A stretch of 64,000 bases of DNA from Phaeospirillum sp. (GTDB lineage Bacteria > Pseudomonadota > Alphaproteobacteria > Rhodospirillales > Magnetospirillaceae). Position 1 is the first letter of the stretch, and each line of letters opens with the position of its first letter. Positions 8,711 to 59,419 of this stretch are shown here, one piece after another. Under the pieces are notes generated by a model that had not been told where the DNA came from, searched no databases, and saw only the letters and a program-made list of their open reading frames with translations. The DNA lies in assembly GCA_030651575.1 (NCBI GenBank), contig JAUSFB010000032.1, forward strand, positions 272,001-336,000. The letters are read 5' to 3'. A program made the position numbers and the translations under genes.

Positions 8711-8716
8711 TTGCAG

Positions 8717-8812
8717 TGCAACAAACGGAAGTCCTCGGACGCTCCCTTGTTGCCTTTCTTGGACGTTTCCTCCCAAAACTCAAGCCGCTGGGGCAACCCA
8801 GCGGTTTTTTTT
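8717..8812 (+). ncRNA. Candidate AbcR/alpha-r15-like trans-acting sRNA
   Basis: The transcript of about 95 nt has the architecture of the alphaproteobacterial AbcR family: a 5' part with the motif CTCCCTTGTTGCC (8742-8754), a second exposed anti-Shine-Dalgarno motif TTTCCTCCC (8766-8774), and a strong intrinsic terminator. Family members repress ABC-transporter mRNAs by pairing near the start codon, usually with Hfq. Family assignment is from recalled motif arrangement, not alignment. It lies between two leftward protein genes and is read rightward from its own promoter. The ribosome sites of both LIV-type binding proteins in the window are complementary to the second motif region. Confidence 0.62.
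8785..8812 (+). terminator. Intrinsic terminator of the small RNA
   Basis: Perfect 8-bp stem CCGCTGGG / CCCAGCGG with a GCAA loop, followed by eight T (8805-8812) on the plus strand. It ends no plus-strand protein gene, which supports a dedicated small transcript. Confidence 0.85.
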
Positions 8813-8814
8813 GG

Positions 8815-8931
8815 CTATAAACTTCTGATTGCGCCATAGGCCAGAGATCCAAGCAAAATGGCGAGGAGAACCGCCACGCCGACAATGATGCGGCGGCTGA
8901 AGATGATGTCATCGGGAGTCGGTTGGGTCAT
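8815..8931 (-). CDS. 38-residue single-span membrane protein
   Basis: Small protein of 38 residues starting MTQPTPDDIIFSRR, with one hydrophobic helix (IIVGVAVLLAILLGSLAYGAI) and a basic flank on the N-terminal side. Its ATG overlaps the stop of the upstream acetyltransferase as ATGA, so it is translationally coupled and likely real despite its size. The function is unknown; coupling suggests it may anchor or regulate the acetyltransferase, but that is inference. Confidence 0.7.
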   Translation of the reverse strand: MTQPTPDDIIFSRRIIVGVAVLLAILLGSLAYGAIRSL

Positions 8932-9524
8932 GGCGCATCCTTGGAATTGATTGAAGAAGCCAGCGGCGGGGCCTTGCCGCCATCGGGAAGGGGGCGGTCG
9001 TCGCCACCCAGTGTTCTGTGCATGATCACCACATCGACCCAGCGTCCGAACTTCAGTCCGACTCCGCGCAGGACCCCTTCCTGGCCAAAGCCGTTGGCGC
9101 GATGCAGGGCGATGGACCCAAGATTGGCGGAGTCCCCGATTACGGCGATCATCTGACGATAGCCGAGAGCGGTGCAACGCTCGATCAACGCCGACAGCAA
9201 AACGCCCCCGATGCCGCGCCGGACCACGAACGGGGCCACGTAGATGGAATCCTCGACGGTGTAGCGGTAAGCCGAACGCTGCCGGAAGGGACCGGCATAG
9301 GTGTAGCCCAGAACCTCCCCCTTCTCCTCTGCCACCAGGAACGGTATGCCGCGCCCGATGATCTGGCTCCAGCGGGCGGTCATCTCCTCGACGCTGGGAG
9401 TCTCCTCCTCGAACGACGCGGCCGAGCGGGTGACGTAATACGAATAGATCGCCTGGATCGCCGGCATATCCTCCGCGGTCGCGTCGCGGATCACCACCGG
9501 CAGCGGGGTCGGGCTCAGGGACAT
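8928..9524 (-). CDS. GNAT N-acetyltransferase (phosphinothricin acetyltransferase-like)
   Basis: Acetyl-CoA-dependent N-acetyltransferase of the Pat/Bar type, which acetylates phosphinothricin or, in most bacteria, methionine sulfoximine/sulfone-like analogues. The 198-residue product has IRDATAEDMPAIQAIY at the start, SFEEETPS, the acetyl-CoA-binding loop VVRRGIGGVLLSALI and the late motif NLGSIALHRANGF. Its 5' end overlaps the 3' end of the N-formylglutamate amidohydrolase by 10 bp, and its 3' end overlaps the 38-residue gene, so three genes form one unit. Confidence 0.88.
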   Translation of the reverse strand: MSLSPTPLPVVIRDATAEDMPAIQAIYSYYVTRSAASFEEETPSVEEMTARWSQIIGRGIPFLVAEEKGEVLGYTYAGPFRQRSAYRYTVEDSIYVAPFVVRRGIGGVLLSALIERCTALGYRQMIAVIGDSANLGSIALHRANGFGQEGVLRGVGLKFGRWVDVVIMHRTLGGDDRPLPDGGKAPPLASSINSKDAP

Positions 9525-10450
9525 GATGGTGGGAACTCGCTTGCGGCACGGGCCAGAGACGCGACCACGTCTTCGATATCGGCCTGCATTTGCCCAAAGC
9601 CGGGGCCATGCAGATGCTCGGCCTCATTCATATAAAGTCCTCGGTTCAGCTCGATCTGCAAGGCATGACTGCCCTGGCGGGGTTGGCCGTAATGCCGGGT
9701 GGTGAAACCACCGGCATAGGGGGTGTTGCGCACCACCCGATACCCCTTCCGGCTGAACGCGTCCTCCGCCACCTGGGTGAACAGCGGCGAGCACGCGGCG
9801 CCAAAGCAATCGCCCAACACCACATCCACCCGCGACAACCCGGAATCGCGGTCCAAGGGGCCGCCCACCGATGGCATGGAATGGCAATCCACCAGCAAGG
9901 ACCAGCCGAAGGCGGCCCGGGTTTCCTCCACCAGCCGCCGCAGACAGTCATGATACGGAAGATAACATCGGGTGATCCGCCGCTCCACCTCGGCCACCGG
10001 CAGTTTGGCGCTGTAGATTTCGGCCCCGCTGGCGACAACCCGGGCGATTGTGCCAAGCCCGGCCAGAACCCGAGGACTGCGGGTATTGGCGTGACCGGGC
10101 AGCGGCCCGGCGAACATGGCGGGGTCAAGCTCGTAAGGCTCGCGATTGGGATCACAATAAGCGCGTGGAAACACCGCGCTGATCAGCGGCGCTCCATGAT
10201 CGGGCGCACAGGAATACAGTTCATCGACGAAACTGTCCTCGGATCGGCGCAACGTCTTGGGATCCAGCTTGGAGGCGGCGATGAATTCAGCGGGATAGGC
10301 CCGCCCCGAATGCGGAGACGCGAAAACCAACGCCACGGTCTGTCGGAGCGGAGCACGCACCGTCAGCACGGAACTGTCATCTTGAGTGGCGGTGAGCGTG
10401 GTATCCATGGCGTCGGCAGCATTCTTAGCAGGTCGCGGCAAGGGTGTCAT
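9515..10450 (-). CDS. N-formylglutamate amidohydrolase family protein
   Basis: Zinc hydrolase family that releases formate from N-formyl-L-glutamate in histidine catabolism, or acts on related N-acyl amino acids. The 311-residue product contains FASPHSGRAYP, the metal-site region DPNREPYELDP, and LLVDCHSMPS, all family hallmarks. No hut genes are adjacent, so the in vivo substrate is open. The start used is the ATG at 10450; an internal ATG (residue 15, MDTTLTATQ) is possible. It leads the operon with the acetyltransferase. Confidence 0.88.
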   Translation of the reverse strand: MTPLPRPAKNAADAMDTTLTATQDDSSVLTVRAPLRQTVALVFASPHSGRAYPAEFIAASKLDPKTLRRSEDSFVDELYSCAPDHGAPLISAVFPRAYCDPNREPYELDPAMFAGPLPGHANTRSPRVLAGLGTIARVVASGAEIYSAKLPVAEVERRITRCYLPYHDCLRRLVEETRAAFGWSLLVDCHSMPSVGGPLDRDSGLSRVDVVLGDCFGAACSPLFTQVAEDAFSRKGYRVVRNTPYAGGFTTRHYGQPRQGSHALQIELNRGLYMNEAEHLHGPGFGQMQADIEDVVASLARAASEFPPSCP

Positions 10451-33551: not shown

Positions 33552-33715
33552 GGGGCTTGCTCCTGCCTGAGAAATCTCATTGCGATCATGGGGAAATGGT
33601 ATATCGAACCGATATCGCTTTTCAAGCACAATCGCATTGCCGACATTGTCCATGGTCAAGCCCACCGGCCCTGCTAAACTAAAGCGACTGATTTTCGTCC
33701 AGGGAGGAAAGACCG

Positions 33716-34819
33716 ATGAGCAGGACCAAACTTCTGGCGTTGGCCGTAACCGCCGCCGCTCTTTTTGCCGGCAATCACGCCCATGCCGACATCACGATCG
33801 GCATGGCCGGCCCCATTACCGGCAGTGAAGCCGCTATCGGCGAGCAGTTCCGCCGCGGCGCCGTCAAGGCCGTCGAGGACATCAACGCCAAGGGCGGCGT
33901 CCTGGGGCAAAAGCTGGTGGTGGCCATCGGCGACGACGCCTGCGACCCAAAGCAGGCCGTGGCCGTCGCCAACGAAATGTCCTCCAAGAAGGTACCGTTC
34001 GTGGCTGGGCATTACTGCTCGGGCTCGTCGATCCCGGCCTCGGACGTCTATGCCGAAACCGGCATCCTGCAAATCTCTCCCGCCTCGACCAACCCGAAAT
34101 ACACCGAACGCGGCCTGCCCAACGTGTTCCGCGTCTGCGGCCGCGATGACCAGCAGGGCAAGGCGGCCGCAGACTATATCGCCAAGCACTTCAAGGGCAA
34201 GAATGTGGCGGTCATTCACGACAAGTCGCAATACGGCAAGGGACTGGCCGATCAGACCAGGGACTATCTGGGCAAGCTGGGCGTCAAGGAGGTTCTCTAC
34301 GAGGCCTACACCGCCGGAGAAAAGGACTATTCCGCCCTGGTCACCAAGCTGAAGGCGGCCAAGGTCGACCTGGTGTATCTCGGTGGCTACAAGACCGAGG
34401 GCGGCCTGATCGTCCGCCAGATGCGCGACCAGGGAATGCAGACCACCCTGATGGGCGGCGACGCCCTGATGACCGAGGAATACTGGTCGATCACCGGCCC
34501 CGCCGGCCAGGGCACCCTGATGACTTTCAGCCCCGACCCGCGCAAAATTCCGGCCAATGCCGAACTGGTGAAGTACTACCGCGCCCAGAACTACGAGCCG
34601 GAAGCCTATACCCTGTACACCTACGCCACGGTACAGACCTGGGTTCAAGCGGTGGAAAAAGCCAAGTCCACCGACTGGAAAAAGGTTGCCGCCGTGCTGA
34701 AGTCGGAAAGCTTCGATACCGCGCTGGGCAAGATGGCCTTCGACGCCAAGGGCGACGCCGCCGCCCCCGGCTATGTCGTGTATGTGTGGAAGAACGGTAA
34801 GTACGAATACGCGGAATAA
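33716..34819 (+). CDS. livK: Branched-chain amino acid ABC transporter substrate-binding protein
   Basis: Periplasmic binding protein of 367 residues. The signal peptide is KLLALAVTAAALFAGNHAHA with cleavage before DITIG. The mature part begins with the LivJ/K pattern GMAGPITGSEAAIGEQFRRG, and has YCSGSSIPASDVYAE and the hinge-region DDQQGKAAADYI. The start lies 5 bases after GGGAGGAAA. It is separated from livHMGF by a leftward gene. The ribosome site is complementary to the candidate sRNA of this window. Confidence 0.95.
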   Translation: MSRTKLLALAVTAAALFAGNHAHADITIGMAGPITGSEAAIGEQFRRGAVKAVEDINAKGGVLGQKLVVAIGDDACDPKQAVAVANEMSSKKVPFVAGHYCSGSSIPASDVYAETGILQISPASTNPKYTERGLPNVFRVCGRDDQQGKAAADYIAKHFKGKNVAVIHDKSQYGKGLADQTRDYLGKLGVKEVLYEAYTAGEKDYSALVTKLKAAKVDLVYLGGYKTEGGLIVRQMRDQGMQTTLMGGDALMTEEYWSITGPAGQGTLMTFSPDPRKIPANAELVKYYRAQNYEPEAYTLYTYATVQTWVQAVEKAKSTDWKKVAAVLKSESFDTALGKMAFDAKGDAAAPGYVVYVWKNGKYEYAE

Positions 34820-39596: not shown

Positions 39597-40097
39597 TTGG
39601 CCAACAAGGTAAACAGCAAAAGCAGGACACGGAAGCCGGTTTCGGGTGATTTATCCCCCGCTCCAACCACGGGTCTTGCCCTCGACATGCTTGATGACAT
39701 CGTCGGCTATCGGCTGCGCCGTGCCCAGTTTGTGGTCTATCAAGACTATGTCCGGACTGTCGGATCCCTGGAAATCCGGCCCGCGCAATTTGCCGCCATG
39801 ACCATTATCGGCGCCAATCCCGGCCTCAGCCAAACCACCCTGGCGGGGACCATGGGAATCGACCGCTCCGGCGCGGTCATCCTGATCGACGCGCTTGAGG
39901 ACAAGGGGCTGGCCAGCCGCGTCCCATCGCCGGTGGACCGGCGCACCTACGCCATCGTGCTGACTGAAAAGGGCCAAGCCACCCTGGCGCGCCTCAAGGA
40001 ACTGGTGAGCGAGCACGACCGCCGCGTCACCGCCTGCCTGACCGAGGCCGAACGCGGCCAACTCAGCGCCTTGCTGCTGCGCCTCTATCAGGGCTGA
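39597..40097 (+). CDS. MarR-family regulator of the CoA catabolic cluster
   Basis: A 166-residue winged-helix regulator. TTG start at 39597, four bases after AGGAGG. The wHTH has LRPAQF-type spacing in EIRPAQFAAMTIIGANPGLSQTTLAGTMGIDRSGAVILIDALEDKGL and the wing VPSPVDRRTYAIVLT. Homologues beside hydroxycinnamate genes (CouR, FerR type) sense the aromatic acyl-CoA and repress. Here the gene sits 87 bp upstream of the crotonase, with a palindrome between them. Confidence 0.88.
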   Translation: MANKVNSKSRTRKPVSGDLSPAPTTGLALDMLDDIVGYRLRRAQFVVYQDYVRTVGSLEIRPAQFAAMTIIGANPGLSQTTLAGTMGIDRSGAVILIDALEDKGLASRVPSPVDRRTYAIVLTEKGQATLARLKELVSEHDRRVTACLTEAERGQLSALLLRLYQG

Positions 40098-42169: not shown

Positions 42170-42188
42170 TTGTTGTTGTGCGCAACAG
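42170..42188 (+). promoter_or_regulatory. Candidate MarR operator 2
   Basis: TTGTTGTTGTGCGCAACAG lies in the divergent region between the 3-hydroxyacyl-CoA dehydrogenase and the binding-protein gene, and matches site 1 at 17 of 19 positions. It is placed to control both directions. Confidence 0.55.
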
Positions 42189-42301
42189 TTTTTATCGGCA
42201 ACAATGCCCCTTGACGAACGGGCTCTGCCAGATCAGGATCATGATCAATAAGTTGCCAAAGAGCGACACCAGAGGCTTTCGATCCGAGAAAGGGACGTCC
42301 A

Positions 42302-43555
42302 ATGTCTGACAACACTATGAATCCGTCTGCATCCAAGGGCATTTCCCGGCGCCAATTCACGGCCGCCGCCGCGACAGGCGCCTTGATCTCCTCCGCCGGC
42401 CTGCCGTTTCGTTCGGCCCGCGCCGCGACTCCGCTGAAGCTTGGCGTCTTGCTGCCGCGCTCCGGCCATCTGGCGCTGATCGGCCAAGCCTGCCAGCGCG
42501 GCGCCGAAATCGGCCTGCCCATGCTGCGCGATATGGGCTATGCGGTCGAGCTGATGAACGCCGATACCGAGTCGAATCCGGATTCCGGCCGCACCCAGGC
42601 GGAAAAACTGATCCGCGAAGGCGCTCAGATGCTGATGGGCTGCTTCGACTCCGCCACCACCCTGGCGGTTGCCGGCGTCGCCGAGCAGAAGGGCATCCCC
42701 TTCGTGGTCAATATCGGCGCCGAGCCCAAGATCACCGAACAGGGCTTCAAATACGTTTTCCGCAATTTCCCCAGCGCCCCCATGTTGGGCAAGGGCGGAT
42801 TGCTGCTCTACAAGGATATGTTCGCCGCCGCCGGAGTCTCCCCCAAGACCGCCGTGCTGCTGCACGTCAACGACAGCTTCGGCATGGGCATGCTGGGCGG
42901 TATCAACGCCCTGATGCCCAAGCTGGACATGCCCTTCACCATCGTCGAGACCATCGCCTACGACCCCAAGGCCCGCGATCTGTCCATCGAGGTGGCCAAG
43001 GCCAAGGCGGCTAAGGCCGATTTCGTCATGACCGTGACCCGGCTCAACGACGCCATCATGCTGGTGCGCGAAATGGTCAAGCAGCAGGTCGAGACCATGG
43101 GCATCACCTCGCCCGGTTCACCCGGCATGTACGACAAGCAGTTCTTCAAGGCTCTGGGCAAGTATGCGGAATTCTGCTCGGTCAACATCCCGTGGTTCGA
43201 CCCCAAGCAGGAGATGGCCCAAGTTCTCAGCAAGACCTTTGAAAAAGCGTTCCCCGAGGAAAGCTGCGACCTCAACGTCGGCTTCACCTTCGAGGCCGTG
43301 CTGATCGCCGCCGACGCCCACAAGCGGGCCGGCAGCAGCGATCCGCAGGCGCTGACCGAGGCCCTTCGCGCCACCAACATCGCCAAGCGCGTCATGCTGG
43401 GCGGAGCGATCAAGTTCGAAGCCAACGGCCAGAACATGAATCTGCGCTCGGCGGTAGTCCAGAACCTGAACGGTCGGCCGACGGTGGTGCTGCCCTCTGA
43501 ATCGGCCGAGGCGAAGCTGGTCTTCCCGATGCCGCCCTTCAAGGGCCGTACCTGA
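42302..43555 (+). CDS. LIV-type ABC substrate-binding protein (Tat-exported), system 2
   Basis: A 417-residue binding protein of the leucine/aromatic-acid type. The N-terminus has a Tat signal, ISRRQFTAAAATGALISSAG, ending ARA. The mature domain starts PLKLGVLLPRSGHLALIGQACQRGAEIG. In this catabolic context an aromatic or branched acid ligand (hydroxycinnamate-like) is more likely than leucine. Its ribosome site and start are complementary to the candidate sRNA at 8717. First gene of a five-gene transporter set. Confidence 0.92.
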   Translation: MSDNTMNPSASKGISRRQFTAAAATGALISSAGLPFRSARAATPLKLGVLLPRSGHLALIGQACQRGAEIGLPMLRDMGYAVELMNADTESNPDSGRTQAEKLIREGAQMLMGCFDSATTLAVAGVAEQKGIPFVVNIGAEPKITEQGFKYVFRNFPSAPMLGKGGLLLYKDMFAAAGVSPKTAVLLHVNDSFGMGMLGGINALMPKLDMPFTIVETIAYDPKARDLSIEVAKAKAAKADFVMTVTRLNDAIMLVREMVKQQVETMGITSPGSPGMYDKQFFKALGKYAEFCSVNIPWFDPKQEMAQVLSKTFEKAFPEESCDLNVGFTFEAVLIAADAHKRAGSSDPQALTEALRATNIAKRVMLGGAIKFEANGQNMNLRSAVVQNLNGRPTVVLPSESAEAKLVFPMPPFKGRT

Positions 43556-43586: not shown

Positions 43587-44456
43587 ATGGACGCGACATT
43601 CTTCTTGAACGTGACCAGTGGCGGTCTGCTGACCGGTCTGGTCTACGGCCTGATGGCGCTTGGGCTGTCGGTCATCTTCGGCGTCATGCGCGTGGTCAAT
43701 TTTGCCCATGGCGACATGATGGTGGTGGCTATGTACGCCGCCTTCCTGCTGTTCACCAAACTGGGCATCGAACCGGTCCCCGCGCTGCCTCTGGTGGCCG
43801 GTGGCCTGTTCGTGTTCGGGTACCTCCTACAGCGGTTTCTCATCAACCGCTTCCTGGGGGTCACCGAGCACATCCAGTTCCTGCTGTTGCTGTCGATCGC
43901 CATGATCATCACCAACGGACTGCTGATGGTGTTCGGCCCCGACGCCCGTAATATCCAGCTGGACGCCAGCTTCGAGAGCTACTCCATCGGCCCGTTGGTG
44001 CTGGACAAGGTCCGCGTCATCGCCGCCATCACCGCTGGCGGAGTAGCGGCCTTGCTGTGGGCCTTCTTCCGCTACACCACGACGGGAACCGCCATCCGCG
44101 CCTGCGCCGACAATCCGGTGGGCGCGCGGGTGGTGGGGCTCGACGTGGAGAAACTCTATGCCGTCACCTTCGGCATCGGCGCCGCCTGCGTCGGGGCCGC
44201 CGGTTGCCTGCTGCTGCTGCTGATGGATGTGCATCCGCATCTGTCGTCGGACTATACCCTGCTGGGCTTCATCATCGTCATTCTGGGTGGCCTCGGCAGC
44301 CTGGGCGGCGCGCTTTTGGGCGGCATCCTGGTGGGATTGTCCGAGGCCCTGTCCGGGGTGCTGATCGCTCCCAGCCTGAAAAGCATGTTCAGCTTCGGCC
44401 TGCTGATCCTGGTCTTGCTGCTGCGGCCGCACGGCATCTTGGGGAAAAAGCCATGA
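43587..44456 (+). CDS. LIV-type ABC permease LivH, system 2
   Basis: Permease, 289 residues, eight helices. Family signature GGLLTGLVYGLMALGLSVIFGVMRVVNFAHGD and coupling loop TGTAIRACADNPVGARVVGLDVEK. The ATG start lies 31 bp after the binding-protein stop; the 3' end overlaps livM by ATGA. Confidence 0.94.
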   Translation: MDATFFLNVTSGGLLTGLVYGLMALGLSVIFGVMRVVNFAHGDMMVVAMYAAFLLFTKLGIEPVPALPLVAGGLFVFGYLLQRFLINRFLGVTEHIQFLLLLSIAMIITNGLLMVFGPDARNIQLDASFESYSIGPLVLDKVRVIAAITAGGVAALLWAFFRYTTTGTAIRACADNPVGARVVGLDVEKLYAVTFGIGAACVGAAGCLLLLLMDVHPHLSSDYTLLGFIIVILGGLGSLGGALLGGILVGLSEALSGVLIAPSLKSMFSFGLLILVLLLRPHGILGKKP

Positions 44457-45439
44457 GCGCCCTTCTGTCCGACCGCCGGGCGGTCTTGCTGCTGGGCCTG
44501 CTGGCGGTGCTGGTCGTGGCTCCGCTGGGAGCCGGCGACTACCTCCTGTCGATCCTGATCACCATCTTGCTCCAGGCTTATCTGGGCATGGCGTGGAACG
44601 TGATGATGGGCTTCGCCGGCCAGTTCTCGCTGGGTCACGCGCTTTATGTCGGCCTCGGCGCCTATGCCGGCGGCGCTCTGTTCGTGCATTTCGGAACTCC
44701 ACCCCTGATCGGGGCCATGGCCGGCATGCTGGTATCCGCCGTGGCCGGAACGATCATCGGAGCGTTGGGCTTTCGCTTCAAGGTGATGGGGGTCTATTTC
44801 GCCCTGCTGACCATCGCCTTCGCCGAGTTCGTCCGCGTCCTGTTCGATCACTGGGGCTGGGTGGGGGCGTCTTCCGGCCTGTTCCTGCCGGTCAGCAACC
44901 GCGCCACCGACGATATCTGGATGCTGCGGGGCTCGGCGACCATGTTCTACTACGTGATCCTGGGCATGGCGGCGCTGGGCTTCGCCTTCTCGCGCTCGCT
45001 GCTGCGCCGCCGCATCGGCTATTACTGGCAGGCCATCCGCGAGGACCAGGAGGCCGCCGACGCCTTGGGCATCGACGTTTTCCGTCTCAAGATGATCGCG
45101 GTGGTGATCTCGGCCTCCATGACCAGCCTGGGCGGCCTGTTCATCGCCTTTTACAACAACAACCTCTATCCCGAGAGCATCTTCTCCATGCACCGCTCCA
45201 TCGAGCTGATGCTGGGGACCATCATCGGCGGAATCGGAACCCTGTTCGGCCCGATCCTGGGCGCGGTGGTGCTGACCGCGCTGGGTGAGATTCTGACCAT
45301 CGCCGGCAACGCCATCGGCATCGACGGCATCAAACAGATCGCCTATGGCGTCTGCCTGATGGCAATCCTGATCCTGAAGCCCGGCGGTTTGTGGCCATGG
45401 CTACGTCAGCGCTTTGGCCTTGAGGGAGGCGCACGATGA
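44453..45439 (+). CDS. LIV-type ABC permease LivM, system 2
   Basis: Second permease, 328 residues, without the long N-terminal extension of the system-1 LivM. The core has TILLQAYLGMAWNVMMGFAGQFSLGHALYVGLGAY and the coupling region GYYWQAIREDQEAADALGID. The ATG at 44453 overlaps livH; an ORF extension to 44057 is a shadow. Confidence 0.94.
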   Translation: MSALLSDRRAVLLLGLLAVLVVAPLGAGDYLLSILITILLQAYLGMAWNVMMGFAGQFSLGHALYVGLGAYAGGALFVHFGTPPLIGAMAGMLVSAVAGTIIGALGFRFKVMGVYFALLTIAFAEFVRVLFDHWGWVGASSGLFLPVSNRATDDIWMLRGSATMFYYVILGMAALGFAFSRSLLRRRIGYYWQAIREDQEAADALGIDVFRLKMIAVVISASMTSLGGLFIAFYNNNLYPESIFSMHRSIELMLGTIIGGIGTLFGPILGAVVLTALGEILTIAGNAIGIDGIKQIAYGVCLMAILILKPGGLWPWLRQRFGLEGGAR

Positions 45440-46181
45440 CCGCCGCCAAGGGAAACAGCCCCCTGCTATCGGTCGAGAATGTCGGCAAGAGCTTTCGGGG
45501 ACTGCGCGCCGTCAACGCCGTCACCTTCCAGGTTCCGCGCGGCGATATCGTCGCCCTGATCGGTCCCAACGGCGCTGGCAAGACCACCACCTTCAACCTG
45601 ATCGCCGGAGCCTTGCCGCCCAGCGAGGGGCGGATCGTGCTGGACGGCGCCGACATCACCGGGCTGGATCAGGCCCGCATCTGCCGGGCCGGCATCGGCC
45701 GCACCTTCCAGATCGTCAAGCCGTTCGCCGGCCTGACCGTCGAGGAAAACGTCATGGTCGGCGCGCTGCGCCACGATGGCGGCGATGTGGAAAAGGCCCG
45801 CGTCGAGGCCAACAAGATCTTGCGGCTGCTGGAATTGGGCGACAAGGCCTCTCATCCAGCCCAGTCGCTGACCCTGCCCGACCGCAAGCGGCTGGAAGTG
45901 GCGCGCGCCCTGGCGACACGACCGAAGCTGCTGCTGCTGGACGAGGTGATGGCGGGTCTAAGGCCGGTGGAGTGTGACCGCATGGTGGCGATCCTGACCG
46001 GCCTCAACAAGGAAACCGGCCTGACCATCTTGCTGATCGAACACGTCATGCGCGCCGTGATGGCGCTGTCCGACCATGTGGTGGTGCTGCATCACGGCGA
46101 GAAGATCGCCGAGGGCACGCCGGCCGAGGTCACCAGCCACCCCAAAGTGTTGGAATGCTATCTGGGCGAGGAGCACGAGTG

Positions 46182-46182
<1 letters not shown>
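45436..46182 (+). CDS. LIV-type ABC ATPase LivG, system 2
   Basis: ATPase, 248 residues. Walker [11 protein letters not shown]-loop [10 protein letters not shown], Walker [12 protein letters not shown] and switch His LIEHVMRA. The signature motif is [15 protein letters not shown], unlike the usual [15 protein letters not shown]; the Ser-Gly pair is replaced by Leu-Pro-Asp. This is characteristic of some aromatic-acid transporter subfamilies but worth noting. Overlaps livM and livF. Confidence 0.93.
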
Positions 46183-46886
<704 letters not shown>

Positions 46887-46927
46887 AGAACCAAATCGAC
46901 CGGCAACGACCGGAGTGGGAGGACGTC

Positions 46928-48769
46928 ATGAATAGCACTGCCTGGGGACCGATCAACTTCGCTCCGGCTCGGGTCTCGGTCGAGGAATTGCCCGGCGGCG
47001 GCATGATCCTGCGCTCTCCCGACAGCCTGAAGCCATTCTCTCGCTGCCTCGGCGACCTACTGCACCACTGGGCGGACCGCACCCCCGACGCCATCTTTCT
47101 GGCCCAACGCGATGCCGAAGGCGGCTGGCGCAAGGTCACCTGGGCCGAGGCGCTGAAGGCGGTCGAAGCCATCGCCCAGTCATTGCTGGATCGCGGCCTG
47201 AACAAGAACCGGCCGGTCATGATCCTGTCGGATAACAGCATCGATCACGCCTTGCTGGCCCAGGGCGCCATGTATGCAGGAATTCCGGTGTCGCCGATCT
47301 CGCCGGCCTATTCCCTGGTCTCCAAGGACTTCTCCAAGCTCAAATACATCGCCGATCTGCTAAAGCCGGGCTTGGTCTACGCCGCCGACGGCGCCCGCTT
47401 CGCCGATGCCCTGGTGATTCCGGAACTGGCCCGCGTCGAAGTGGTGACCAGCACCAATCCGCCGGCCGGATCGGCCAGTTTCGCGTCGCTGCTGACCGCC
47501 ACTCCCGGTATCGAGGTCGAGACGGCCTTTGCCTCGGTCCGCCCCAGCACGGTTGCCAAGATTCTGTTCACCTCGGGCTCCACCGCCCTGCCCAAGGGGG
47601 TGATCAACACCCAGCGGATGATCTGCTCGAACCAGCAGGCGATCCGCCAGTGCTGGCCGTTCCTGGCCGACTCCGCGCCGGTGCTGGTGGACTGGCTGCC
47701 GTGGAATCATACCTTTGGCGGCAATCATAACTTCAACATCGTGATGCGCCACGGCGGCACCTTGTATATCGACGAGGGCAAGCCGGTCCCCGGCCTGATC
47801 GAAAAAACGGTGGCCAATCTGCGCGAAATCTCGCCGACGCTGTATTTCAACGTTCCGCGCGGTTTTGACATGCTGATTCCGCTGTTGGAAAACGACGAGG
47901 CGCTGCGTGTTTCGTTCTTCCGCGATCTGAAGCTGATGTTCTATGCCGGCGCGGCCCTGCCCCAGACGCTGTGGGACAAGCTGGAAAATCTGTCGATCAG
48001 GACCGTCGGCCACAAGGTGCGGCTGGTGTCGTCCTGGGGCTCGACCGAGACCTCGCCCATGATCACCACGGTGCATTTCGATATCGAGCGCGCCGGCAAT
48101 ATCGGACTGCCGGCTCCCGGCTGCGAAGTGAAGATGATCCCCAATGGCGGCAAGATGGAGATGCGGGTTCGCGGAACCAACATCACGCCGGGCTATTACA
48201 AACGCGACGACCTGACCCAGGCCGCCTTCGACGAGGATGGTTTTTATATCATCGGCGATGCCGGCAAGCTGGCCGACCCCGATGACCCGGCCAAGGGCAT
48301 CGTGTTCGATGGCCGGGTTGCCGAGGACTTCAAGCTGATGTCGGGAACCTGGGTGCCGGTGGGAGCCCTGCGGCTCGACATCATCGACGCCGCCTCTCCC
48401 ATCATTCAAGACGCGGTCATCACCGGCCATGACCGCGAAGAGGTCGGCGTGCTTGGCTTCGCCAGCCAGCCCGGTTGCCTCAAACTGTGCCCAGACGCCG
48501 CCCCCGATACTCCGCTGAAGGACCTGATCGCCCGGCCGGAAGTGCGCGATCATCTGGCCAAGGCATTGAAATCACTGGCTGCCCAGGGCAAGGGTAGTTC
48601 CCACCGGGTCGCTCGGGCGCTGCTGATGGATGAACCACCCTCCATCGACGCCAACGAGATCACCGACAAGGGCTATATCAACCAGCGCGCCGTACTGACC
48701 TGCCGGGCCGATCTGGTGGAACGCCTCTACGCCGAGAGCGACACCCCTGAGATCGTCCGCCTCGCATAA
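46928..48769 (+). CDS. Feruloyl-CoA synthetase-like AMP-dependent acyl-CoA ligase
   Basis: ANL-superfamily ligase of 613 residues that activates a carboxylic acid as acyl-AMP and then acyl-CoA. The P-loop is LFTSGSTALPKGV, with Ala where most ligases have Gly, a feature I associate with feruloyl-CoA synthetases; SSWGSTETSP and the ADP-binding GDAGKLADPDDPAKGI follow. The C-terminal hinge and lysine region are shorter than in fatty-acid ligases. Together with its neighbours it defines the cluster's entry step. Substrate is inferred. Confidence 0.85.
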   Translation: MNSTAWGPINFAPARVSVEELPGGGMILRSPDSLKPFSRCLGDLLHHWADRTPDAIFLAQRDAEGGWRKVTWAEALKAVEAIAQSLLDRGLNKNRPVMILSDNSIDHALLAQGAMYAGIPVSPISPAYSLVSKDFSKLKYIADLLKPGLVYAADGARFADALVIPELARVEVVTSTNPPAGSASFASLLTATPGIEVETAFASVRPSTVAKILFTSGSTALPKGVINTQRMICSNQQAIRQCWPFLADSAPVLVDWLPWNHTFGGNHNFNIVMRHGGTLYIDEGKPVPGLIEKTVANLREISPTLYFNVPRGFDMLIPLLENDEALRVSFFRDLKLMFYAGAALPQTLWDKLENLSIRTVGHKVRLVSSWGSTETSPMITTVHFDIERAGNIGLPAPGCEVKMIPNGGKMEMRVRGTNITPGYYKRDDLTQAAFDEDGFYIIGDAGKLADPDDPAKGIVFDGRVAEDFKLMSGTWVPVGALRLDIIDAASPIIQDAVITGHDREEVGVLGFASQPGCLKLCPDAAPDTPLKDLIARPEVRDHLAKALKSLAAQGKGSSHRVARALLMDEPPSIDANEITDKGYINQRAVLTCRADLVERLYAESDTPEIVRLA

Positions 48770-48785
48770 CTCAAGGAAGACTTCC

Positions 48786-50009
48786 ATGACCAAAGGACTC
48801 GGAGCCGTCTATAACGATGTCTGGCTGGTGGACGGTGTCCGCACCGGCTTCGCCGACTTCACCAGTGTGCTGCGCGATATCTCCCCCACCGATCTGGGGA
48901 TCAAGGTGGCGCGGGAAGCCCTGGCCAAAGCGGCCATTCCCGCCGCCGAGATCGACATGGTCGTCGCCGGCAACATGGCGCAGAGCAGCTTTGACGCCTA
49001 TTTCCTGCCGCGTCATATCGGCCTGTATTCGGGGGTTCCGCTGGAGACTCCGGCGCTGCTGGTTCACCGCCTGTGCGGCACTGGCTTCGAGACCATCATC
49101 CAGGCGGCCGACGCCATCACCCTGGGCAAGGCCACCAAGGTTCTGTGTGTCGGCACCGAGTCCATGTCCCGCAATCCGGTGGCGTCCTACACGTCGCGTT
49201 CCGGCTTCAAGATGGGGCAGGTGGAGTTCAAGGACTTCCTGTGGGAAGCGACCAAGGACACCGCGTCATCCACCGGCATGGGCGATACCGCCGAGAATTT
49301 GGCCAAAAAGTACAATATCAGCCGCGAGGAAGTCGATGAGTTCGCCGCTCAGAGCTTCGCCCGCGCCATCGCCGGCATGGAGTTCCGCTCGGGCGAGATC
49401 GTGCCGGTCATCAACGAGACCTTCAGCCTCGCCGGCTATAATGATCGAGGCATCCGCCTGCCCAAGGGTGTCGAGAACTTTGCCATCGACGAACATGTGC
49501 GCCCCACCCCGCTCTCCATCCTGAACAAGCTGAAGCCCGCCTTCAAGGGGGTGCAGACCGGCGGCAACAGCTCGGCCGTGGTCGACGGCGCCGCCGCCGC
49601 CATCGTGGTCGGCGGCCAGACCGTGCGCGAGCGGGGCTTGAAGCCGCTGGCCCGCGTGGTCGCCGCCGATGTGGTCGGCGTGCCGCCCGAAATCATGGGA
49701 ATCGGTCCCGCTCCCGCCATCGCCGCCGTGGTCGAACGCGCCGGTCTCAAGCTGTCCGATATCGACCGCTTCGAGATCAACGAGGCGTTCGGCGCCCAGT
49801 ATCTGGCGGTGGAAAAGGAACTCGGCCTCGACCGCTCCAAAGTCAACGTCAATGGCGGCGCCATCGCGCTGGGCCACCCGCTGGGAGTAACCGGGGTGCG
49901 GCTGTGCATCACCGTGGCTCGCGAACTGCGCCGGGCCGGACTCAAACGCGGCATCGCCTCGGCCTGCATCGGCGGCGGCCAGGGCGTGGCGATCCTGATC
50001 GAGGTATAG
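48786..50009 (+). CDS. Thiolase (acetyl-CoA acyltransferase)
   Basis: Degradative-type thiolase of 407 residues that releases acetyl-CoA from a 3-ketoacyl-CoA. Active-site Cys in VHRLCGTGFETI, His in NVNGGAIALGHPLG, and second Cys in ASACIGGGQG are all present. It starts 16 bases after the ligase stop and is the third enzyme of the beta-oxidation-like set. Confidence 0.93.
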   Translation: MTKGLGAVYNDVWLVDGVRTGFADFTSVLRDISPTDLGIKVAREALAKAAIPAAEIDMVVAGNMAQSSFDAYFLPRHIGLYSGVPLETPALLVHRLCGTGFETIIQAADAITLGKATKVLCVGTESMSRNPVASYTSRSGFKMGQVEFKDFLWEATKDTASSTGMGDTAENLAKKYNISREEVDEFAAQSFARAIAGMEFRSGEIVPVINETFSLAGYNDRGIRLPKGVENFAIDEHVRPTPLSILNKLKPAFKGVQTGGNSSAVVDGAAAAIVVGGQTVRERGLKPLARVVAADVVGVPPEIMGIGPAPAIAAVVERAGLKLSDIDRFEINEAFGAQYLAVEKELGLDRSKVNVNGGAIALGHPLGVTGVRLCITVARELRRAGLKRGIASACIGGGQGVAILIEV

Positions 50010-50036
50010 CCCGCCCGGCGACTGAGGGACACAACC
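50009..50036 (+). repeat. Direct repeat copy 1 (28 bp)
   Basis: GCCCGCCCGGCGACTGAGGG plus ACACAACC directly after the thiolase stop, repeated at 50102-50129. The two copies are 93 bp apart start to start. Confidence 0.85.
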
Positions 50037-50101
50037 GGAGCAAAGCGACGAGGCCGTCAAGGCCGCGCCGCTCGTGCGGCGAAAGCCAAGGGCGCGGATG
50101 C

Positions 50102-50129
50102 GCCCGCCCGGCGACTGAGGGACACAACC
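50102..50129 (+). repeat. Direct repeat copy 2 with ribosome site
   Basis: Exact second copy of the 28-bp unit. Its GAGGGA serves as the ribosome site of the acyl-CoA dehydrogenase start at 50134, so the duplication spans translation signals. Copy 1 has no start codon in position. Confidence 0.85.
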
Positions 50130-50133
50130 AACA

Positions 50134-51798
50134 ATGATCGACTACCGCACCCCCCTACCCGATCTGCTATTCGCGCTCAAACATGGCGCCGACGCCGCCC
50201 GTTTGCCCCATTGGGATGAAGAACTGGCGTCGGACGTCATGACTCATGCCGCAACCATGGTGGACGGCATCATCGCGCCGCTGGACCCCATCGGCGATAT
50301 GGAGGGTACTCATCTGGTAGAGGGGCGCGCCGTCATGCCGGCCGCCTTCGTCGACGCCTTCCGGCAATTCAAGGACGGAGGCTGGCCCGGTCTGGCGGTG
50401 GCGGAGGAAGACGGCGGCCAAGGCCTGCCCCATATCCTGGCCTCGGTTCTGTCGGAAATGCTGTCGGGGGCCTGCATCACCTATCAGATGGTGCTGTCGC
50501 TGGCTCATGGCGCCATGCGGACCCTGATCGCCAGCGGCTCGGAGGCCCAGCGCAAGACCTGGGTTCCGCGTCTGGCCTCGGGCGATTACCTCGCCACCAT
50601 GTGCCTGACCGAGCCCCAGGCCGGCTCCGATCTTGGTCTGGCGCGGACCATGGCCACCCCCGCCGAGGATGGTTCCTGGCGCATCTCCGGCGGCAAGATC
50701 TTCATCTCCGGCGGCGATCAGAACCTGACCGACGGCCGTATCATGCATCTGGTTCTGGCCCGCACTCCCGGTGCGCCGGCCGGAGTCAAGGGACTGTCGC
50801 TGTTCCTCAGCCCGTCGCATCTGCCCGATGACAGCCGCAACCCGATCTCGGTGGTGCGGCTGGAAGAAAAGATGGGCATGCACGCCTCGCCGACCTGCCA
50901 GATCGCCTTCGACGGGGCCTGGGCCGAGATAATCGGCGCTCCCGGCGAGGGCCTGAAGCGCATGTTCACCATGATGAACGCCGAGCGGCTGGACGTGGCG
51001 GTCCAGGGCGTCGGACTGGCGGAGGTGGCCATGCAACGCTCGCTGGCCTATGCCGCCGAGCGCAAGCAGGGCCGCGCCGGAGCCTCCGAAGGCCCCGACG
51101 TCATTTCCCGGCACGGCGATGTGCGACGCATGTTGATGACGCAGATGGCTCTGGCCATGGGCTGCCGCGCCCTGGTCATGCGAACCCTGGTCGATCTGGA
51201 GTTGAACGAAACTCCGGCGCTGATGGAACTGATGACGCCGGTATGCAAGGCCTTCGTCACCGACGCGGCGCAAGAGGCCGCCAGCCTCGCCATCCAGATT
51301 CACGGCGGCTATGGCTTCCTGCGCGAATATCGGGTCGAGCAGATCGCACGCGACGCCCGCATCACCCCCATCTACGAAGGCACCAACGGCATCCAGGCCC
51401 AGACCGTGGCCGGCAGGGTAATCCGGCTGGACAACGGCGCGGCGCTGCGCGAATTCAAGGCGGAGATCGACGGCGCGGCCGCCATCGCTGTTCCCGCCAC
51501 CGCCGCCGCCCTTATCCAAGCCTTGGCCGCCATGGACAAGGCCACCACCGCCATCCTGCCGCGCCGCGATGTGGGCCTGATCGCGACCAGCTATCTTCGC
51601 CTGCTGGGACTGGTAGCGTTCGCCGCCGCCTGGGCCAGGCTGGAGGCTGCCGCCGAGGCCGCCCCAAACCCGGAACGGGTCCGCGCCTGCGCAACTTTCG
51701 TCCGCGACTGGATGCTGCCGGAGGTCGAGCATCTTGCGGCGCGATGCCAAAGCGATGGCGAGCTAGGGTCCTTACCCGACACCGTCTTCCAATCCTGA
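50134..51798 (+). CDS. Acyl-CoA dehydrogenase
   Basis: FAD-dependent desaturase of 554 residues. TMCLTEPQAGSDLGLARTMA and KIFISGGDQNLTD are the flavin-binding signatures; the catalytic glutamate is in PIYEGTNGIQAQTVAGR. A C-terminal extension of about 100 residues places it in the long, fadE12/hydrocinnamate-type subgroup. It could desaturate a phenylpropanoyl- or branched acyl-CoA, extending the pathway to saturated side chains. Last gene of the cluster. Confidence 0.92.
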   Translation: MIDYRTPLPDLLFALKHGADAARLPHWDEELASDVMTHAATMVDGIIAPLDPIGDMEGTHLVEGRAVMPAAFVDAFRQFKDGGWPGLAVAEEDGGQGLPHILASVLSEMLSGACITYQMVLSLAHGAMRTLIASGSEAQRKTWVPRLASGDYLATMCLTEPQAGSDLGLARTMATPAEDGSWRISGGKIFISGGDQNLTDGRIMHLVLARTPGAPAGVKGLSLFLSPSHLPDDSRNPISVVRLEEKMGMHASPTCQIAFDGAWAEIIGAPGEGLKRMFTMMNAERLDVAVQGVGLAEVAMQRSLAYAAERKQGRAGASEGPDVISRHGDVRRMLMTQMALAMGCRALVMRTLVDLELNETPALMELMTPVCKAFVTDAAQEAASLAIQIHGGYGFLREYRVEQIARDARITPIYEGTNGIQAQTVAGRVIRLDNGAALREFKAEIDGAAAIAVPATAAALIQALAAMDKATTAILPRRDVGLIATSYLRLLGLVAFAAAWARLEAAAEAAPNPERVRACATFVRDWMLPEVEHLAARCQSDGELGSLPDTVFQS

Positions 51799-58279: not shown

Positions 58280-59419
58280 CTACAGCAGGCCGCGGGCCGA
58301 CAGCCAGTACAGTCGGTTATAGGCCAGCTTGAACCAATGGATCATCTGGGACGGCGGGCCGGGATTGGGCGGCGTGGTGTAATTGAACCACACATAGGTA
58401 CCCGAGCTGAGGCCGGTCTCGACGAAGCAGAACACCTTACCGTCATATTCGCGAGCGAAAGCGCCTTCCTGGCACAGCGAAACCAGATTGTCGATGGTGA
58501 CGTCGGCTTCGAAATGGGCGGTGGAGCCGGCCTTGGAGATCGGAATATTGGTGGTGTCGCCGACCACGAAAACATTGGTCGAGCCGTCGCGATACAGCGT
58601 CTTGGGGTTGGTCGGCACCCAGCCGCCCTTGCCGAGCCCGGAATCGTCGATCACCTGGGCGCCCTGATGCGGCGGAATGGTGATCAGCAGATCATAGGAC
58701 AGCTCGCTGCCTTCCATGGAGGTCAGCGTCTTCTTTTCCGGATCGACGCTTTCGGTATTGAAGAAGGTCTCGTACTTGATGCCCAGCTTCTCGAATTCGG
58801 GCTTGGCCCAGTGCGCCACGGCCTCCAACGCATGCAGGCGGCCGATGGGATAGGTGTAGGTCAGCTCGGTCTTTTCCCACAGGCCGCGGGCCTTGAGGAA
58901 GTCGTGCAGCATGAAGGCCACTTCCAACGGTGCCACCGGGCATTTGTGCGGGGCATTGACGTTGATGACGATCTTGCCGCCTTGGAAGGCGTTGAGCGCA
59001 CCGCGCAGTTTGCGGGCGCCGTCGAGGTCATAGAACCAGTGCCCGCCTTCCTTCATGCCGGGAATGCTCTGCGGCATGATGCGCGAGCCGGTGGCCAGCA
59101 CCAGATAATCGTAGCGGAAAGTCCGTCCGGCCTCGGTGGTGACCTGGTTCTTCTCCACATCGATATGCTTGGCCGGATCGACGAAGAAGTTCACCCTTTT
59201 GTCCAGCACCTTACGCTGTTCGCGGAACAGCTCGGCCTCGCGGATGCGCCCGAACGGCACATACAGCAGGCCCGGCTGATACATGTGGGTTTCGGACGTC
59301 CCCAGCATGGTGATGGTGAGCGCGCCATTCCGCAATTCGGCCCCCATCTGGCGGCACAGACCATTCGCGACGATGGTGCCGGCAAGGCCCCCGCCGACGA
59401 TCAGAATCGTCTTGGACAT
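58280..59419 (-). CDS. SQR-like FAD-dependent oxidoreductase
   Basis: A 379-residue flavoprotein of the sulfide:quinone oxidoreductase family, from ATG 59419 after GGAGGG. The FAD motif is VGGGLAGT at residues 8-15, with FVVGDTTNIP near 285 and the amphipathic membrane-binding C-terminus MIHWFKLAYNRLYWL. Cysteines are at 22, 160, 316 and 331. Cys160 (HKCPVAPLEVAF) and Cys331 (KVFCFVETG) match two of the three classical SQR cysteines, but none occurs near residue 125. It may therefore act on a different sulfur species or partner. Confidence 0.85.
   Translation of the reverse strand: MSKTILIVGGGLAGTIVANGLCRQMGAELRNGALTITMLGTSETHMYQPGLLYVPFGRIREAELFREQRKVLDKRVNFFVDPAKHIDVEKNQVTTEAGRTFRYDYLVLATGSRIMPQSIPGMKEGGHWFYDLDGARKLRGALNAFQGGKIVINVNAPHKCPVAPLEVAFMLHDFLKARGLWEKTELTYTYPIGRLHALEAVAHWAKPEFEKLGIKYETFFNTESVDPEKKTLTSMEGSELSYDLLITIPPHQGAQVIDDSGLGKGGWVPTNPKTLYRDGSTNVFVVGDTTNIPISKAGSTAHFEADVTIDNLVSLCQEGAFAREYDGKVFCFVETGLSSGTYVWFNYTTPPNPGPPSQMIHWFKLAYNRLYWLSARGLL

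Follow-up and report, generated by a model that had tools for sequence, protein, structure and literature searches.

An ordinary start-codon match to a genuine alphaR8 small RNA, and a class-level lead among LIV-type binding proteins

Does a small RNA (sRNA) lower the translation of the LIV-type binding-protein gene that starts at position 42302 of the 64,000-nucleotide stretch of Phaeospirillum sp. DNA analysed here (the window)? A first-pass annotation had proposed that the start of this gene pairs with an sRNA encoded in the same window, and that the sRNA serves as a shared post-transcriptional brake on LIV-type binding proteins. Overall, we find an ordinary match, a real sRNA and a lead at the level of the protein class. 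The genes concerned are as follows.

42302..43555, plus strand: LIV-type periplasmic binding protein (Peripla_BP_6, E 1.2e-42)
43587..51798, plus strand: LivH, LivM, LivG, LivF, acyl-CoA ligase, thiolase and acyl-CoA dehydrogenase
33716..34819, plus strand: second LIV-type binding protein (PF13458, E 4.6e-61)

The proposed pairing exists. The sequence GGGACGTCCAA at 42292-42302 lies on the ribosome-binding region and reaches the A of the ATG (42302-42304), and it can form 11 pairs, including two G-U, with TTGGACGTTTC at 8759-8769 on the plus strand. The target bases opposite sRNA positions 8759-8765 are ACGTCCAA.

The sRNA was correctly recognized as well. An Rfam scan of the window returned RF00519 ('suhB') at 8745-8819 on the plus strand, with 56.5 bits against a gathering cut-off of 41, and nothing else besides a tRNA. 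The same family scores above its cut-off in 16/16 same-genus relatives. Several features surround this match.

8711..8723, plus strand: PhaR-type box TTGCAGTGCAACA, directly 3' of TATATAT, a -10-like stretch in the sRNA promoter
8766..8775, plus strand: seed 10-mer UUUCCUCCC(A), read from the sequence; this seed was tested in Caulobacter SisA, according to the available part of PMC12559287
8785..8812, plus strand: intrinsic terminator hairpin followed by T8, from sequence and fold
9515..10450, minus strand: FGase, N-formylglutamate amidohydrolase (PF05013, E 1.3e-75)

Of the family motif UUUCCUCCCU, nine bases out of ten are present here (UUUCCUCCCA), and the final U is found in several relatives. 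FGase is the usual neighbor of the alphaR8 family and stands one gene away from the sRNA in this genome. Judged by its covariance score, by the 10-mer together with a Rho-independent terminator and by the presence of FGase beside the primary copy, the RNA at 8745-8819 is a genuine, ordinary alphaR8/MmgR (SisA-type) sRNA. A second, weak RF00519 match on another contig (L002:1501-1580) scores 32.3 bits, below the cut-off, and has a CCTCCC preceding a terminator-like hairpin; second matches below the cut-off also recur among the relatives.

The promoter sequence suggests that the sRNA is probably under PhaR control, and it would therefore be tied to carbon storage. The PhaR-type pattern occurs at 12 sites in the genome, compared to 0 for the reversed pattern, and three of the 12 adjoin two phasin genes. 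The other sites lie by a resolvase, a glucosaminidase, a TetR/citrate transporter, a cobalamin adenosyltransferase and a zinc dehydrogenase, with no evident link to PHB. Furthermore, the box core TGCANTGCANCA is present in 17/17 same-genus sRNA promoters, the window's own included, and the window box is similar to published PhaR sites, differing at one base from the Bradyrhizobium consensus given in the available parts of PMC12542648 and PMC6201568. In S. meliloti, PhaR has been reported to bind the mmgR promoter (PMC12542648, available part).

The first-pass annotation had held that the match at 42292-42302 goes well beyond a generic anti-Shine-Dalgarno match. This was not upheld, because the chance levels range from a nominal 1% to 15% before the 61 gene starts called within the window are counted. 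The background starts were crude calls (open reading frame, GC3 and Shine-Dalgarno-guided start) in a sample of 464 kb out of the 4.23 Mb of this genome (G000), window included. Helices of 11 contiguous bp with no more than two G-U pairs were found at 4/373 sampled starts, compared to 2.2 +/- 1.5 when 60 shuffled sRNAs were used. If G-U pairs are not limited, 11 contiguous bp are found at 25/373. Computed from 20-nt windows and without the accessibility of either RNA, the best duplex at 42302 has an energy of -20.2 kcal/mol (G000 median -14.7) and ranks 40 among the 373 starts. These energies replaced earlier long-loop duplexes, which were discarded as unrealistic. The rank becomes 16/373 once Shine-Dalgarno strength is regressed out, and it is 9/143 with one single relative and 8/44 with another. 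Taken alone, the 11-mer helix ranks 11 among the best uninterrupted helices of the 373 starts, and an alternative, mutually exclusive 11-bp helix between sRNA 8753-8763 and 42283-42293 is slightly stronger, with rank 9.

Shuffling gave similarly mixed results. Among 35 shuffled sRNAs, the 42302 start ranked 40th or better with one, and -20.2 was reached by none. Shuffled 21-mers made from the invariant bases of the sRNA reached the mean energy of 13 leaders in 13.9% of 1000 cases, and when CCTCCC was held fixed and the rest shuffled, 1.4% of shuffles did equally well. The 42302 match is nominally above typical, but not once the 61 window starts are allowed for; after Shine-Dalgarno correction it exceeds what is usual for starts whose ribosome sites are this weak. 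Additionally, the pairing is not centered on UUUCCUCCCU, and only the last four bases of sRNA 8759-8769 (UUUC, 8766-8769) fall inside the 10-mer seed. Since the helix holds only these four motif bases, the reading of 42292 as an alphaR8 target is lowered, and a different kind of contact is still compatible with the data.

On the proposed reading, sRNA 8759-8769 pairs with GGGACGUCCAA, blocks ribosome entry and lowers the amount of the 42302 binding protein. We regard this as unlikely, and conservation provides evidence on both sides. Close orthologues of the 42302 gene (83-91%) occur in 12/16 same-genus relatives, and the nine named contigs on which a relative was found, among them P. caucaseum, P. 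marisnigri, P. kuznetsovii and one or more of Magnetospirillum sp., place the window's genome in the Paramagnetospirillum/Magnetospirillum group. In favor of pairing, besides the position of the site on the ribosome site and its high rank against shuffled sRNAs, GGGACGTCC is present in 12/13 same-genus leaders and the 13th has GGGACGTTC, a G-U-compatible change; nine base pairs are retained in 13/13 (one with an added G-U), in a leader that is conserved as a whole. The full 11 bp are intact in 5/13, namely G000, G002, G008, G014 and, with an additional G-U, G003. The sRNA segment 8759-8769 is invariant in the 13 genomes that have the target orthologue, which thus offer no covariation, and the sRNAs that differ at base 8759 (G004, G006 and G015) all belong to the four genomes without the target gene, which is a small point for pairing. 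Other LIV-type binding proteins also resemble targets of the same sRNA, as described below.

Several observations argue against it, in addition to the ordinary duplex energy and a position mostly outside the tested seed. An extra C in 7/13 genomes, and CCC before the ATG in G007, leave nine uninterrupted pairs, and the seven extra-C genomes have energies of -14.1 to -15.4, about the median of all starts. G001 carries an identical sRNA segment and lacks the target gene. G026, which lies outside the genus and has a 71% identical protein, is also without the site, though both of its alphaR8 copies keep the segment. The first-pass annotation had named conservation in relatives as the check on its claim; the outcome is mixed, with GGGACGTCC kept in the genus but not the full 11 bp, nothing in G026, and leader conservation that extends well beyond the site.

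The leader itself was found by DNA search in 13/55 family genomes, all of this genus, and has the following elements.

42170..42188, no strand: near-perfect inverted repeat TTGTTG-N7-CAACAG, upstream of the promoter, both arms invariant in 13 leaders
42211..42239, plus strand: putative promoter with TTGACG (42211), a 17-bp spacer and CAGGAT (42234)
42252..42267, plus strand: leader hairpin 1, GUUGC-CAAAGA-GCGAC, with four invariant pairs and one that is C-G or U-G
42276..42292, plus strand: possible hairpin 2, CUUUC...GAAAG, covering the ribosome site; some leaders have it in their minimum-energy fold
42293..42307, plus strand: possible hairpin 3, GGACGU-CCA-AUGUCU, spanning the start codon

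Mean identity over positions -40 to -1 is 0.83 for the 42302 leader, compared to 0.51-0.65 for the leaders of LivH, the ligase, the dehydrogenase and the thiolase; LivM, LivG and LivF were left out because they start inside coding sequence, and the divergent gene 42125 gave 0.71 from two usable sequences only. Conservation runs from the promoter to codon 2, which lies outside the pairing. TTGACG is invariant in the 13 leaders and the -10-like hexamer is not, and about 30 bases before the start the leaders have GGAGG, represented by GAGG in this genome. The inverted repeat, placed before the -35, is a possible operator. One candidate regulator is the MarR-type gene at 39597, located near the gene in only 4/12 same-genus stretches. 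An upstream open reading frame over the leader was considered and rejected, as by eye its frame is not kept across leaders.

RNAalifold found hairpin 1 convincing and the others weak. Hairpin 1 has an ensemble probability of 0.62-0.99 in 12/13 leaders and 0.01 in G014, and hairpin 2 is absent from the minimum-energy fold of this genome's leader. Hairpin 3 provides another explanation for the kept bases, in which a cis pairing of GGACGU with AUGUCU would enclose the start codon and tune translation. Its stem bases are invariant in all 13 leaders, the variation within the 11-base site falls in its predicted loop, and codon 2 is TCT in 13/13, a codon that accounts for 2.9% of later Ser codons in the gene. 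On the other hand, invariant pairs offer no covariation, and the ensemble probability of 0.42-0.75 in 11/13 leaders falls to 0.09 and 0.18 in the other two (G002 and G012). TCT is also not unusual at codon 2 (5/38 Ser among sampled genes, the 42302 gene included). Because hairpin 3 is weak, its pairs are unvarying and six leaders are predicted to fold no more stably than shuffles (z -0.42 to 0.70), we consider a role in cis possible, though doubtful.

Other starts in the window were compared with the same sRNA, and two further features are of note.

33702..33710, plus strand: GGGAGGAAA, complementary over 9 bp to the sRNA 10-mer, ahead of the 33716 gene
58280..59419, minus strand: SQR-like gene (sulfide-quinone reductase), below the family cut-off

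The second binding protein, which the first-pass annotation had taken as another match to this sRNA, did not hold as such in relatives: GGGAGGAAA precedes the 33716 gene in 1/11 same-genus genomes, with GGGAGG in 7/11. The G-rich start of the SQR-like gene, GGAGGGAGTTCATGTC, is kept in 12/12 leaders compared (a count that excludes a 13th match, G006), each with an sRNA duplex of -19.3 to -25.0. Two candidates were rejected. The TpiA start (57590, minus strand) has a 12-bp perfect match to UCCUCCCAAAAC here that is absent from 16 relatives, and the site of the ligase at 46928 (GGGAGGACGTCATG) is not retained in most relatives. Window genes make up 13 of the 30 best sRNA duplexes, compared to 6.3 +/- 1.6 (maximum 10) for 35 shuffles. 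Genes near the sRNA are not enriched among the best duplexes in G014 or G016, and thus the local excess is taken as chance.

A signal does appear across LIV-type binding proteins as a class. Our Peripla_BP_6 set consisted of nine full genes of this genome and genes of six congeners, and was compared with 985 background starts drawn from G000, G014 and G016. GGGAGG, the complement of the alphaR8 core, precedes 46/101 Peripla_BP_6 genes compared to 60/985 other starts, and GGGAGGAA precedes 22/101 compared to 6/985. For this genome alone, GGGAGG is found at 7/9 binding-protein starts and 27/370 others, a pattern that was framed after inspecting these nine starts; the six congeners alone have it at 39/92, many of which are mutual orthologues and hence not independent. 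Grouped by N-terminal sequence, 12/36 clusters have GGGAGG in the majority (p 8e-7 against 6.1%). Two large clusters carry it in 7/7 genomes, one of them with GGGAGGAA in all seven. Partial matches were dropped (1/10 of this genome's Peripla_BP_6 matches, 6/99 in the congeners and a further 5/53), L313 and L341 were excluded as they had no start within reach, doubtful starts such as those of the fusion proteins L256 and L314 were kept in the congener count, and three and six binding-protein starts were taken out of the background sets. The proposed brake on LIV-type binding proteins therefore fared differently for the class and for its first example: the class carries the seed complement in excess at its ribosome sites, with strong Shine-Dalgarno sequences accounting for part of it and remaining a confound, whereas the 42302 cluster has GGGAGG in 0/7.

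That confound is itself an explanation, according to which abundant binding proteins simply have strong ribosome sites and the enrichment does not reflect sRNA targeting. We place it somewhat short of an even chance. GGAGG of any kind is likewise enriched (55/101 compared to 145/985), yet a G precedes GGAGG in 46/55 binding-protein sites and in 60/145 others, AA follows GGGAGG in 22/46 compared to 6/60, and AGGAGG, the better match to 16S rRNA, is not enriched (3/101 compared to 26/985). Small control sets bear on the same point, with backgrounds supplied by G043 and G054 (G036 contributed none) and by G038, G045 and G059. In three genomes of the order in which one filtered search detected no alphaR8, binding-protein starts have GGAGG in 10/21 and GGGAGG in 3/21, compared to 4/215 other starts for the latter (p 0.017), which is in keeping with strong ribosome sites; GGGAGGAA occurs in 0/21 of the same starts, which is not. 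In three genera that lie outside the family and do carry alphaR8, GGGAGG occurs at only 3/26 compared to 6/132 (p 0.17), and GGGAGGAA at 1/26. These control counts indicate that strong ribosome sites are general for the class and that the GGGAGGAA form is almost confined to this genus. The survey of binding-protein genes that the first-pass annotation had called for thus found an enrichment here that alphaR8-bearing outgroups do not repeat, and the latter counts against a simple story of presence or absence of the sRNA.

Taken together, we favor, with moderate confidence, an ordinary alphaR8 sRNA that is probably PhaR-controlled, a 42292-42302 match that is most likely chance complementarity or at best a weak accessory contact, lying as it does mostly outside the seed, and a brake, if there is one, that acts mainly elsewhere in the class. 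By analogy with SisA, the sRNA, where expressed, would act with Hfq and cover ribosome sites through its CCUCCC core. The 42302 leader would be conserved for its own reasons, which lie in its promoter, its 5' hairpin, its ribosome site and the region of its start codon, and any repression of LIV-type binding proteins would fall mainly on GGGAGG- or GGGAGGAA-led members and not on 42302. This explanation has to contend with the retention of GGGACGTCC, the core-fixed shuffles, the single shuffled sRNA of 35 and the change at base 8759 only where the gene is missing. The modeled leader folds, no stabler than shuffles, may also weaken a cis-structural cause of the conservation.

A more ambitious proposal is that the Paramagnetospirillum alphaR8 is a class regulator, where PhaR senses carbon storage and controls the sRNA, the CCUCCC core brakes GGGAGG(AA)-led binding-protein mRNAs and 42302 has joined through a second, upstream segment; we hold this only tentatively, as one of the less probable readings. 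If the class signal is true, a single sRNA would connect a regulator of carbon storage with the uptake of amino acids and aromatic acids. On its own, the 42292 site has little significance.

Similar sRNAs have been studied in other alphaproteobacteria. SisA-D of Caulobacter crescentus, which are alphaR8 by family name, share with the window sRNA the UUUCCUCCC motif and a nearby FGase. As described in the available part of PMC12559287, SisA acts on ribosome sites through the motif, pairing just upstream of the start codon, with support from exchange of C40G and target G-6C, whereas the helix at 42292 includes just UUUC from the 10-mer. The Caulobacter target studied as representative is a TonB-dependent receptor, in contrast to the LIV binding protein considered here, and the direct alphaR8 targets named there are five Caulobacter reporters. 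MmgR of Sinorhizobium meliloti belongs to the same family and likewise has a PhaR-type box in its promoter; the available parts of PMC7143759, PMC8401924 and PMC12542648 name no direct mRNA target for it and describe a phenotype in PHB and phasins. The proposed brake also recalls AbcR1/2 of rhizobia, which repress amino-acid binding proteins, livK included for AbcR1 (PMC7143759, available part). The likeness is in mode of action, and the family here is RF00519. By this analogy, the class reading, doubtful as we judge it, would give alphaR8 the role played by AbcR in rhizobia, and, were the class signal true, these two alphaproteobacterial sRNAs would have arrived at one type of target.
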